Of a DNA stretch of 64,000 bases, positions 45,119-49,444 are shown one piece after another. Every line of letters begins with the position of its first letter. Position 1 is the stretch's first letter. The translations under genes and the position numbers were made by a program. The stretch is from contig NZ_RAHH01000024.1 in NCBI RefSeq assembly GCF_003602095.1, forward strand, positions 1-64,000. The letters are read 5' to 3'. Source of the DNA: Rahnella woolbedingensis (GTDB lineage Bacteria; Pseudomonadota; Gammaproteobacteria; Enterobacterales; Enterobacteriaceae). The notes below the pieces were generated by a model, which saw nothing but the letters and a program-made list of their open reading frames with translations, ran no database searches and was not told the origin of the DNA.

Positions 45119-46633
45119 CTATTTCTTCAGGTCTGGATTAACTAACGGGGCAATCACCGCTAAAAGATCAGTTGCCAGCATACCGCGCGTTCCCTGCCGG
45201 TGGGCAATTTCGTCTGCGGCAGCGCCATGTACTACTGAACCCGCGCAGGCCGCATCAAATACATTAAGTTTCTGAGCCAGCAATCCGCCAATGATACCAG
45301 AAAGCACGTCGCCCATACCGCCGGATGCCATTCCGGCATTGCCGACATCCGCCACTGCCATTTCGCCCTGTTCACTGGCAATCAGACTGCCTGCCCCTTT
45401 GAGCACCACCACGCCGCCATAACGCGCCGTGAGTTTCTGCGCCGAAAGTAAGCGGTCACTCTCAATTTCCTTCACGCTGCAACCGAGTAAACGGGCCGCC
45501 TCGCCAGGATGAGGCGTCAGTACACGATTTTGCCGTTTCCGCGGATTGATTGCCAGCAGGTTAAGCGCATCCGCATCCCATAAGGCCGGTTTATCCCACT
45601 TTGCTGCGCGATCCACCGCCTGTTTACCCCATTCTTTCTGGCCTAAACCGGGACCGATCACTAACACATCCGCCCATTCAAGCCCTTCTTCGAGCGATTC
45701 TGCGGTCAGCTCCTGCACCATCAGCTCAGGTCTGGCCGTCAGTAACGGACCGGCATGTTCTTTGTGAGTGAGTACTCGCACCAGTCCGGCACCAGTACGC
45801 AAAGCAGCTTCCGACGCCATACGGATCGCACCGGCAAAACCGGTATCGCCGCCCACCACCAGCAAACGTCCGTGCTCACCTTTATGAGAGCACGGGCGGC
45901 GCGGATGCAACCATTGACCAAGCTGTGAAGCGTCAAGCCGCTGTAATGCCGCAACATGCCCGCCCAGCCAGCTTTCCAGCCCTAGCGCATCACAATGTAA
46001 TTTGCCGGTGTAATCGCGTGCCTGACCGGTCAGTAAACCAGGTTTAAGGGCAATGAAACTGACGGTATGCGTGGCGTGTACCGCCTTCCCCGCTGTCTGA
46101 CCGGTCTGCGCGTCAAGACCCGAAGGAATATCTAAAGAGATAACAGGCAAAGACGCCGAGTTAATGGCAGTAATCAGGGAATCATAAGGTGCGCGCGGCG
46201 CAGAGGACAAGCCGGTGCCAAGCAGACCATCGATAATCAGATCGGTGTCGTGCGGCCACACTGATCCGGCAGAACTGATAGCTCCGCCACCTTTCAGCCA
46301 GCCCTTCCGCGCCGTCTCTGCCTCTTCTGGCAAGGGTTTATTGCCTTCCACGGCCAGCAGGGTCACGCGTATTCCGGCGGTTTTCGCCAGACGGGCGATT
46401 TCAAAACCGTCGCCGCCGTTATTGCCATGACCACATAAAATCAGCCAGTGACGCGTCTGCGGAAACTCACGCTGCGCCAGCAAAAACGCGGCTTTTGCCG
46501 CACGTTGCATCAGTGTAAACAGAGAAATCCCCGTTTCCTGCGCGGCCAGACGTTCAGCTTGTCGCAGCCAGTCAGCAGAAAACACGGAATGTGGTAAACT
46601 CGCCTCGTTTCGTTTTTCACGTTGGTTCGTCAT
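45119..46633 (-). CDS. nnr: Bifunctional NAD(P)H-hydrate epimerase and ADP-dependent dehydratase
   Basis: Nnr (504 residues; E. coli 515) repairs hydrated NADH and NADPH. The YjeF_N epimerase domain occupies about 1-220 (LCGHGNNGGDGFEIARLAK). The ribokinase-like dehydratase domain follows (TPHPGEAARLLGCS, NAGMASGGMGDVLSG). Its ATG overlaps that of the divergent queG by two bases within CATG, as I recall from E. coli yjeF-yjeS. Confidence 0.96.
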   Translation of the reverse strand: MTNQREKRNEASLPHSVFSADWLRQAERLAAQETGISLFTLMQRAAKAAFLLAQREFPQTRHWLILCGHGNNGGDGFEIARLAKTAGIRVTLLAVEGNKPLPEEAETARKGWLKGGGAISSAGSVWPHDTDLIIDGLLGTGLSSAPRAPYDSLITAINSASLPVISLDIPSGLDAQTGQTAGKAVHATHTVSFIALKPGLLTGQARDYTGKLHCDALGLESWLGGHVAALQRLDASQLGQWLHPRRPCSHKGEHGRLLVVGGDTGFAGAIRMASEAALRTGAGLVRVLTHKEHAGPLLTARPELMVQELTAESLEEGLEWADVLVIGPGLGQKEWGKQAVDRAAKWDKPALWDADALNLLAINPRKRQNRVLTPHPGEAARLLGCSVKEIESDRLLSAQKLTARYGGVVVLKGAGSLIASEQGEMAVADVGNAGMASGGMGDVLSGIIGGLLAQKLNVFDAACAGSVVHGAAADEIAHRQGTRGMLATDLLAVIAPLVNPDLKK

Positions 46634-47786
46634 GACACTCCCTCTCGATCTCGTTCAACTGGCTCAACATATCAAGCAATGGGGCCAATCGCTAGGCTTC
46701 CAGCAGGTTGGCATCTGCGATACAGACTTATCTGTCGAAGAGCCCAAACTTCAAGACTGGCTTGATAAACAATATCATGGCGAGATGGACTGGATGGCAC
46801 GCCACGGCATGCTACGCGCCCGTCCGCATGAGTTATTGCCCGGCACATTGCGGGTGATCAGCGTGCGCATGAACTATCTGCCCGCCAAAGCCGCCTTTGC
46901 CAAAACCCTGAATAATCCGCAACTCGGTTACGTCAGCCGATACGCCCTGGGGCGCGACTATCACAAAGTGTTGCGCCAGCGGTTAAAAAAACTGGGCGAC
47001 ATGATCCAGGCGCATTGTACAGAGCACGCGGACCCGACCGTCACCTTCCGCCCTTTTGTGGATTCCGCACCGGTGATGGAACGCCCGCTGGCCGCAAAAG
47101 CCGGTCTTGGTTGGGTTGGTAAACACTCACTTATTCTTAACCGTGAATCCGGTTCGTGGTTCTTTCTCGGCGAACTGCTGATTGATTTACCGCTGCCTGT
47201 CGATCAGCCGCAGGAAGAAAAGTGCGGAAAGTGCGTGGCCTGCATCACCACCTGCCCGACCGGCGCCATCGTCGCGCCTTATACCGTTGATGCCCGCCGC
47301 TGTATTTCCTATCTGACGATTGAACTGGAAGGAGCAATACCGGAAGAATTCCGGCCTCTGATGGGTAACCGCATCTACGGCTGCGATGACTGTCAGCTGA
47401 TCTGCCCGTGGAATCGTTATTCACAACTAACTGATGAAGAAGACTTTAGTCCCCGCGCCGCACTGCATGCGCCGGAGCTGATTACTTTGTTTGGCTGGAC
47501 GGAAGAGAAGTTTTTACGCATTACGGAAGGATCACCGATACGGCGTATCGGACATTTGCGCTGGCTGCGCAATATTGCGGTGGCGTTGGGCAATGCGCCC
47601 TACTCGCAGGAAGTGATGGATTCTCTGCATTTACGCGAAGGGGAAAATGCGCTGCTGGATGAACATATCAGCTGGGCTATCGCGCAACAGGTAGAAAGAA
47701 GAAAGGAACATCGTGTCGAAGTGCAAACATTACAGCAGAAACGGCTGATCCGTGCGGTGGAAAAAGGTTTGCCAAGGGATGCATAA
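46632..47786 (+). CDS. queG: Epoxyqueuosine reductase QueG
   Basis: QueG (384 residues; E. coli 379) reduces epoxyqueuosine to queuosine in tRNA using cobalamin. The catalytic aspartate is D144 in FVDSAPVMERPLA. Two [4Fe-4S] clusters are served by C198, C201, C204, C208 (CGKCVACITTCP) and by C251, C254, C258 (CDDCQLICP) together with a further cysteine. HEAT-like repeats form the C-terminus. It diverges from nnr with overlapping start codons and is followed by the DnaA-box region. Confidence 0.96.
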   Translation: MTLPLDLVQLAQHIKQWGQSLGFQQVGICDTDLSVEEPKLQDWLDKQYHGEMDWMARHGMLRARPHELLPGTLRVISVRMNYLPAKAAFAKTLNNPQLGYVSRYALGRDYHKVLRQRLKKLGDMIQAHCTEHADPTVTFRPFVDSAPVMERPLAAKAGLGWVGKHSLILNRESGSWFFLGELLIDLPLPVDQPQEEKCGKCVACITTCPTGAIVAPYTVDARRCISYLTIELEGAIPEEFRPLMGNRIYGCDDCQLICPWNRYSQLTDEEDFSPRAALHAPELITLFGWTEEKFLRITEGSPIRRIGHLRWLRNIAVALGNAPYSQEVMDSLHLREGENALLDEHISWAIAQQVERRKEHRVEVQTLQQKRLIRAVEKGLPRDA

Positions 47787-47825
47787 CATTTCCCTGAAGA
47801 CTATGATCCGTATTGCATAATTTTC

Positions 47826-47995
47826 TGTGCATAAAAATAAAAATGCTTTGCCAATCAAGTGCAAAAAAAAGAGCAAGAGATCGTCATAACGTTTCGCTAT
47901 AAATTTATTTATATTTAAATCAATAGGTTAAATTTTGGCAATATGGCAGGCGCAAAAAACAGACAGTCTAAAAAAACAACTAAACCTGTGGATAA
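47826..47995. promoter_or_regulatory. datA: datA-like DnaA-box/IHF locus between queG and the tRNA-Gly array
   Basis: The 314 bases between queG and the tRNAs carry two perfect 9-base DnaA boxes in the same orientation: TTATGCACA (minus strand of 47826-47834) and TTATCCACA (minus strand of 47987-47995). Between them AATCAATAGGTTA (47918-47930) fits the IHF consensus WATCAANNNNTTR at every position and follows an A/T tract. Weaker boxes (7 of 9) occur at 47812, 47858 and 48050. In E. coli, datA, which promotes DnaA-ATP hydrolysis through DnaA boxes flanking an IHF site, lies beside glyVXY. Position and architecture agree; function is inferred. Confidence 0.65.
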
Positions 47996-48100
47996 GTCTG
48001 TTTAAAAAAATAATACAAACCGTGTAATGATTGTTTCATTCGCGCACGAAATATGCACCAGAAAGGCATAAAGAAATGATTTTGTATTGAAGAAGAAAAT

Positions 48101-48176
<76 letters not shown>

Positions 48177-48235
48177 GTCGCATGGCACTGCATTTTTTAC
48201 ATCTTAAATCTTTAAATCTGCACAACTTAAAAATT

Positions 48236-48311
<76 letters not shown>

Positions 48312-48370
48312 GTCGCATGGCACTGCATTTTTTACATCTTAAATCTTTAAATCTGCACAACTTAAAAATT

Positions 48371-48446
<76 letters not shown>

Positions 48447-48505
48447 GTCGCATGGCACTGCATTTTTTACATCTTAAATCTTTAAATCTGCACAACTTAA
48501 AAATT

Positions 48506-48581
<76 letters not shown>

Positions 48582-48622: not shown

Positions 48623-48650
48623 ATTATACGAGAAATCCTTTCTGCCGCAA
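48623..48650 (-). promoter_or_regulatory. tRNA-Gly operon promoter
   Basis: On the minus strand TTGCGG (48645-48650), 16 bases and a perfect TATAAT (48623-48628) are followed by the GC-rich discriminator GCGCACCCC, the signature of stringently controlled stable-RNA promoters. Start would be about 35 bases before the first tRNA. Bases 48651-48784 upstream may hold Fis sites; nothing definite was identified. Confidence 0.85.
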
Positions 48651-48898: not shown

Positions 48899-49444
48899 TT
48901 AAAGATTAATAAAGTGTTCGCGGTAATAGGCTAACTCGGCCACGGATTCACGGATATCGTCCAGCGCCTGATGAGTATTCTGCTTCTTAAACCCGCCCAG
49001 CACTTCCGGCTTCCAGCGACGCGCCAGTTCTTTGAGCGTGCTGACGTCCAGATAGCGGTAATGGAAATACTGTTCCAGCTCCGGCATATACTTAAACAGG
49101 AAACGTCTGTCCTGCCCCACGCTGTTGCCACAAATCGGCGATTTACCCGCCGGAACCCACTCACGCAGGAACTCGATGGTTTTAAGCTGTGCCTCATTGT
49201 CATCAAACGGGCTGGCTTTTACGCGTTCAACCAGACCGCTGCCGGTATGCGTGCGCACATTCCAGTCATCCATCAGCGCCAGCTGAGCATCAGACTGATG
49301 TACCGCCATCACCGGCCCTTCGGCCAGAATGTTCAGATGCGCGTCGGTTACCAGCGTCGCAATCTCGATAATACGGTCACGTTCAGGATCCAGACCGGTC
49401 ATTTCCAGGTCGATCCAAATTAAGTTCGAGTCATTTGCAGCCAT
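48899..49444 (-). CDS. orn: Oligoribonuclease
   Basis: Orn (181 residues, as in E. coli) degrades 2-5-nt RNAs and pGpG to mononucleotides and is essential in E. coli. DEDD-family motifs are visible: [10 protein letters not shown] (D12, E14), [11 protein letters not shown] and [10 protein letters not shown]. The C-terminal YYREHFINL is conserved. It diverges from rsgA across 126 bases and is followed at once by the repeat element. Confidence 0.97.

Follow-up and report, generated by a model that had tools for sequence, protein, structure and literature searches.

The closest described system to the element reported here is the datA locus of Escherichia coli, for which one review counts two consensus and four one-misfit DnaA boxes (PMC5835720) and another gives a minimal segment for DnaA-ATP hydrolysis of 183 bp comprising boxes 7, 2, and 3 and one IHF site, while also quoting 262 bp (PMC5742627). 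According to these reviews, boxes 2, 3, and 7 and the IHF site are essential, whereas boxes 1 and 4 are not essential in vivo (PMC5742627, PMC5835720), and box 4 is described as stimulating hydrolysis in vitro (PMC5742627). In E. coli, datA is described as making a rather modest contribution to DnaA-ATP hydrolysis, and how much asynchrony follows from its deletion is disputed (PMC5835720). The pair formed by boxes 7 and 2 is listed as the DnaA ChIP-seq site at E. coli datA (PMC11317965, Table 1). A survey covering E. coli strains only reports one base fewer between the IHF site and box 3 in strain 536 (PMC4585315), scripts for DnaA-box maps of S. enterica are mentioned in PMC12371093, and DnaA-box clusters in Bacillus subtilis and Streptomyces coelicolor are called analogous to datA in PMC10950094. 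Our literature searches found no paper on datA orthologues outside E. coli; Kasho and Katayama 2013 and Kasho et al. 2017, which lay beyond the reach of these searches, may note conservation.

Three other E. coli systems share features with the element. DARS1 and DARS2 are likewise non-coding DnaA-box clusters that set the nucleotide state of DnaA, and DARS2 also uses IHF, but they reactivate DnaA, and boxes I and II are opposed there (PMC8682772), whereas the three boxes of the present element lie in one orientation. The conservation of DARS2, including Rahnella aquatilis and Vibrio cholerae, has already been published (PMC8682772, Fig. 8 legend). At the right end of E. coli oriC, R4 and a weak neighbour form the same double-box pattern of a weak box, GAG, and TTATCCACAG. 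This weak neighbour of R4 goes by the name C1. Double boxes are tabulated as cTTCCTGACAgagTTATCCACAg for oriC and cTTGTAAACAgagTTATCCACAg for datA (PMC11317965, Table 1). Unlike oriC, the present element combines one double box with an IHF site and box 3, and the locus corresponding to it in E. coli is distinct from the chromosomal origin.

The window, a stretch of 64,000 nucleotides from Rahnella woolbedingensis (contig NZ_RAHH01000024.1, from an assembly of 113 contigs and 5.46 Mb), contains a gap of 314 bp with 31% G+C (47787-48100) between queG and four tRNA-Gly(GCC) genes. A preliminary description of this gap had reported two perfect DnaA boxes in the same orientation and a perfect IHF consensus with an adjacent A/T tract, all of which are present, but had overlooked a third essential element, the weak box 7 (Table 1). 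From the tRNAs to queG, the order is box 7, GAC, box 2, IHF site, T-rich tract, box 3, and the end of queG, with boxes 7, 2, and 3 all in one orientation and a single IHF consensus between boxes 2 and 3. Neither the box 1 nor the box 4 position holds a DnaA box in the window, and the box 1 position reads TCTGGTGCA. The encoded QueG is 93-98% identical to that of seven Rahnella loci (96-98% in five). The tRNA-Gly repeat units at 48096-48581 match at 99% with a 135-bp period, which suggests a recent amplification, and a GATC (Dam site) lies in the IHF-box 3 spacer at about 47879-47882.

Table 1 Features of the predicted datA locus and its neighbours in the window.
Feature	Position	Strand	Basis
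Predicted datA core, box 7 to box 3, 182 bp	47826..48007	-	comparison with NC_000913.3 (L089)
Weak DnaA box 7, TTTTAAACA, two misfits to TTATNCACA	47999..48007	-	sequence
Linker between boxes 7 and 2, GAC, 3 bp	between 47999 and 47995	-	sequence
DnaA box 2, TTATCCACA, perfect	47987..47995	-	sequence
IHF site, AATCAATAGGTTA, perfect match to WATCAANNNNTTR	47918..47930	+	sequence
IHF-box 3 spacer, unusually conserved between genera	47844..47917	-	0.81 bits per column
T-rich tract touching box 3, TTTTTATTT	47835..47843	-	1.55 bits per column
DnaA box 3, TTATGCACA, perfect	47826..47834	-	sequence
Four tRNA-Gly(GCC) genes, 135-bp tandem repeat, transcribed towards datA	48101..48581	-	
Predicted tRNA-operon promoter, TTGCGG-16-TATAAT, G+C-rich discriminator GCGCACCC	48623..48650	-	prediction
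queG, convergent with the tRNA operon	46632..47786	+	
orn, oligoribonuclease, synteny marker	48899..49444	-	

We compared the locus with the experimentally defined datA of E. coli K-12 (NC_000913.3, 4391000-4396500), where the gene order is rsgA, orn, glyV-X-Y, queG, nnr, tsaE, and amiB. The translated neighbours around the element in the window are the same as those in K-12 (identities assigned by reading, except for queG, orn, and the tRNAs), and the proposed placement beside glycine tRNAs is borne out by the order orn, tRNA-Gly, datA, queG in both genomes. K-12 datA consists of box 7 TTGTAAACA, GAG, TTATCCACA, the IHF site TATCAATAGGTTA, and then TTATTCACA, with boxes 7, 2, and 3 in one orientation and the IHF site between boxes 2 and 3, as in the window. 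Start-to-start distances from box 7 to box 2, box 2 to the IHF site, and the IHF site to box 3 are 12, 65, and 96 bp in the window and 12, 65, and 97 bp in K-12, giving cores of 182 and 183 bp, respectively. The two loci differ in the linker (GAG in K-12, GAC here), in the number of tRNA-Gly genes (three and four), and in boxes 1 and 4, which are present in K-12 and missing here. In addition, IHF and box 2 are reported to attenuate read-through at E. coli datA (PMC10950094), whereas a scan of the window found no terminator-like site between the tRNAs and datA. Judged by sequence, place, and geometry, the element is the datA orthologue, in agreement with the datA-like reading of the preliminary description. 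The same description credited E. coli datA with five strong boxes and the window with fewer; K-12 has two perfect boxes, as does the window, which lacks nothing but boxes 1 and 4, both dispensable.

In order to evaluate conservation, we retained 80 queG loci from a search with the window QueG, which found 209 relatives, and defined a strict pair as TTATCCACA N149-157 TTATNCACA. The boxes, whose lack of conservation in close relatives the preliminary description had named as a refutation, are widely retained: the strict box 2-box 3 pair occurs in 78/80 queG loci, and of the remaining two, one ends 142 bp after queG (L005) and one has a box 3 with one mismatch (L061). In 71/80 loci, the two boxes enclose an IHF site with at most one mismatch, including L070, where the IHF match is shifted to 54 bp; 8/80 have both boxes and no IHF site within one mismatch, and the last is the truncated L005. 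Across a sample of the family, the pair is present in 249/392 genomes (reversed control, 1/392 by reading), which does not support the suggestion that this genus would define a minimal datA. Most misses are reduced genomes, and about 244/265 family genomes of at least 3 Mb contain the pair (hand count). In an order-level sample of 394 genomes, the pair was recovered from 30/34 family genomes vs. 12/360 genomes of other families (control, 2/394), and the four family misses are genomes of 0.8-1.2 Mb.

Among the 143 family genomes with no match, 24 of 2.0 Mb or more were queried for queG (G544 and G560 were left out), and 17 of them encode it. By reading, 13 of these 17 keep box 2 and have an altered box 3 or spacing: nine contain TTACTCACA or TTACCCACA at 159 or 161, three contain TTATGAACA at 164, and one has a perfect box at 154. 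A recognisable pair is absent, again by reading, from the other four (G718, G448, G415, and G750). A few family pair matches, in G498 and G717, were rejected as datA because they fall in tandem arrays of boxes on small contigs, and second pair matches occur in G441, G631, G704, and G725. Two genomes of 0.8-0.9 Mb have contigs of 3-4 kb, L324 (1896-2125) and L325 (1-205), in which tandem TTATCCACAG arrays with 11- and 20-base periods were seen; by reading, a protein encoded on L325 resembles a plasmid replication initiator. In G482 (L222-L224), QueG matches fall into three separate reading-frame pieces, with the neighbouring double box still in place, as is a box at +154.

A census of individual elements was built from 62 loci picked by the box 2-box 3 pair; the IHF, linker, and box 7 features given below played no part in picking. 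Within the picking range, the distance between the two boxes is 161 in 39/62 loci and 159-163 in 60/62. The best IHF match lies at offset 65 in 48/62 and at 64-66 in 61/62. An IHF site within one mismatch is present in 42/62 loci vs. 1.4 expected by shuffling (five in the opposite orientation), and at exactly +65 in 35/62 vs. 0.16 expected. The remaining 20/62 loci have IHF sites with 2-3 mismatches; because of these, and of the eight queG loci described above, IHF dependence may vary. The IHF-box 3 spacer is conserved at 0.81 bits per column, compared with 0.29 for the box 2-IHF spacer and 0.17-0.21 outside the element, and the T-rich tract abutting box 3 reaches 1.55 (profile of 73 sequences without L090-L094; the picture is the same when L090 and L091, from outside the family, are included). 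GATC occurs in the IHF-box 3 spacer of 41/62 loci. In E. coli, the T-tract next to box 3 is overlapped by the very small gene yjeV, but a coding reason for the tract is weakened by the presence of a start codon at the yjeV position in only 10/62 loci; an in-frame ATG occurs in the stretch scanned upstream in 26/62.

Box 7 deviates from the consensus in every locus, with one mismatch to TTATNCACA in one, two in 48, and three or four in 13, while the linker to box 2 is GAG or GAC in 59/62. Position 6 of box 7 is A in 57/62 loci and positions 7-9 are ACA in 62/62. Since box 7 never fits TTATNCACA, its weakness itself seems to be conserved, and such a weak box may prefer ATP-DnaA. At E. coli purH, an improved weak upstream box is reported to bring no rise in DnaA association (PMC11317965). 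Box 1 is perfect in 29/62 loci and box 4 is within one mismatch in 21/62, a coming and going that is expected given that both are dispensable in E. coli.

Outside the family, five of the 12 genomes' pair matches were examined. L091 (genome G004, family f5, 2.5 Mb) lies beside queG and contains a weak box 7, GAG, box 2, and a box 3 at exactly 161, with a 2-mismatch IHF site at offset 65; no tRNA was found in this stretch. L092 and L093 (family f11) also lie beside queG and have a weak box 7 and a GAG linker, whereas L090 and L094 are not beside queG. At the f11 loci L296 and L297, a double box lies beside queG together with a box at +165; neither contains an IHF consensus, and we call them only datA-like. 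The motif AACAGASTTATCCACA alone was rejected as a datA marker, being found in 132/394 genomes of the order (reversed control, 0), including 28/34 of the family. In three outside genomes (G001, G009, and G036) it lies far from queG, with positions compared by eye; such distant copies probably belong to oriC, and the E. coli oriC site listed in Table 1 of PMC11317965 is similar. Because the motif alone is unspecific, only loci beside queG or orn were counted as datA-like.

A longer arrangement was found in family f21, which appears to be Vibrionaceae-like. A double box followed by TTWTCCACA at long distance occurs in 69/121 f21 genomes (control, 0) and is absent from 52/121. We read 25 loci picked by this pattern, 24 of them distinct (L299 and L307 are one place). 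QueG is encoded in the fetched stretch of 24/25, the remaining one (L309) has orn, and 17/25 have tRNA-Gly. The loci contain an inverted TTATCCACA at +19 in 21/25 and, as the pattern demands, TTTTCCACA at +262 to +279 in 25/25. At +120 to +122, 15/25 have an IHF-like site with at most one mismatch, a raw, uncontrolled count. No QueG was found at three f21 loci with the double box alone (L286, L292, and L293). The six loci L302-L307, from one f21 genus (g93), all contain the double box AACAGASTTATCCACA on both strands, 19 bases apart. From its sequence, the long-spacer form looks like the same element re-cut.

The predicted window tRNA promoter, which was not listed by a consensus scan, reads towards datA, and we asked how transcription into the element varies, with tRNA genes called by ARAGORN. 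Where the sequence extends far enough upstream, 42 loci lack a tRNA gene within 300 bp ahead of box 2, including loci from Pectobacterium, Xenorhabdus, and two Pantoea (two of the set, L032 and L116, seem to be the same contig); in some, such as L036 and L133, a tRNA-Gly is found further upstream. A promoter-like site with a G+C-rich discriminator directed towards datA is present in 37/42 of these tRNA-less loci vs. 0.97 expected from shuffles, an expectation that applies to criteria set post hoc, after the first cases had been seen; none occurs on the opposite strand. These orphan sites lie about 150-220 bp before box 2 (L031, L018, and 35 other loci). The five loci without a strict promoter are L033, L042, L124, L137, and L138, of which L042 has a CACAAT variant. 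Across 17 Xenorhabdus loci, the two hexamers have mean column identities of 0.98 and 0.99, the discriminator 0.99, the spacer 0.86, and the 5′ and 3′ flanks 0.75 and 0.90, and the conserved 3′ flank makes a small RNA from the orphan promoter a rival reading. The footprint is weak in Pectobacterium (10 loci), where the hexamers stand at 0.95 and 1.00, because the spacer is at 0.92 and the discriminator equals the 5′ flank at 0.86. An Rfam search of eight tRNA-less loci found no known RNA family, its five matches all being tRNAs in L298. A quick QueG tree with 121 rows, 43/114 of whose inner branches are poorly supported, requires four changes in whether a tRNA-Gly lies within 400 bp, or three by well-supported branches. 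Since 36/42 tRNA-less rows form one group, the strict-promoter loci without a tRNA may reflect only two or three independent losses.

The R. woolbedingensis genome also encodes IHF alpha and Hda, both above curated cut-offs. DARS-like stretches occur on contigs other than that of the window: one matches the E. coli rppH-mutH gap (DARS2) at 71% over 194 bases, 89% over 36, and 78% over 50, and one matches the bioD-uvrB gap (DARS1) at 89% over about 51. By homology to E. coli, the element is highly likely to be this genome's datA locus and to act through DnaA-ATP hydrolysis. DnaA-ATP would bind the double site of box 7, GAC, and box 2 as well as the distant box 3. After initiation, IHF would bind between the boxes and bend the DNA so as to join the two DnaA groups, which would lead to hydrolysis of the DnaA-bound ATP and stop early re-initiation. 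Transcription from the tRNA-Gly promoter towards datA may help to clear IHF before initiation.

Other explanations were weighed against this reading. A chance clustering of boxes gains something from base composition, since A/T-rich DNA raises the match rate: the mean count of TTATNCACA over 20,000 dinucleotide shuffles of the gap is 0.026, rather than the roughly 0.01 of the preliminary description, whose conclusion that the cluster is improbable nevertheless stands. At least two boxes arose in 0.03% of the shuffles and two boxes with an IHF site in 0/20,000, the box 2-box 3 pattern has a single match in the whole 5.46-Mb genome, and members of the family share the pair at a nearly constant spacing, with reversed-pattern controls yielding almost no matches. 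Shuffles and conservation together rule chance out for practical purposes, leaving it vanishingly improbable. The boxes could alternatively be a passive sink that titrates DnaA without stimulating ATP hydrolysis, since titration was the first role described for datA in E. coli and does take place there (PMC5835720). A sink, however, needs neither a near-fixed box distance, nor a fixed IHF offset, nor a box that is kept weak, all of which are seen, and we regard titration alone as improbable.

Bound DnaA and IHF might instead act as a terminator or roadblock that keeps tRNA-Gly transcripts out of queG. In favour of this, transcription of the tRNA operon and of queG is convergent, a scan between the tRNAs and datA in the window revealed no ordinary terminator, and the attenuation reported at E. 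coli datA is of this kind. The box geometry nonetheless persists in the 42 tRNA-less loci described above, an argument that is not decisive because 37 of them keep a promoter-like site reading in, and E. coli datA mutants are described as having initiation phenotypes (PMC5835720). We consider a roadblock function very unlikely, somewhat more so than a passive sink.

We give roughly even chances to a broader proposal: that datA predates the family, as its presence beside queG in at least two neighbouring families (f5 and f11) and the long-spacer form in a Vibrionaceae-like family would indicate; that box 7 is kept weak by selection; and that a strong tRNA-type promoter into datA was kept after loss of the adjacent tRNA in at least two or three lineages, so that transcription, and not the tRNA, would be what is selected there. 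For specialists, the points worth pursuing are the census, the conservation of the weak box, the orphan promoters, and the f21 form. Lineages that kept the promoter and lost the tRNA would be natural experiments for the published, incomplete model in which read-through counteracts IHF at datA, and the f21 form would show the reach of this DnaA switch and whether its geometry can be re-cut. For R. woolbedingensis, a layout that relatives retain with hardly a base changed makes the window datA very probably a working and old brake on DNA replication, and the box geometry, IHF offset, and weak box found across the family argue that a stereospecific DnaA-IHF complex, rather than mere titration, has been selected.
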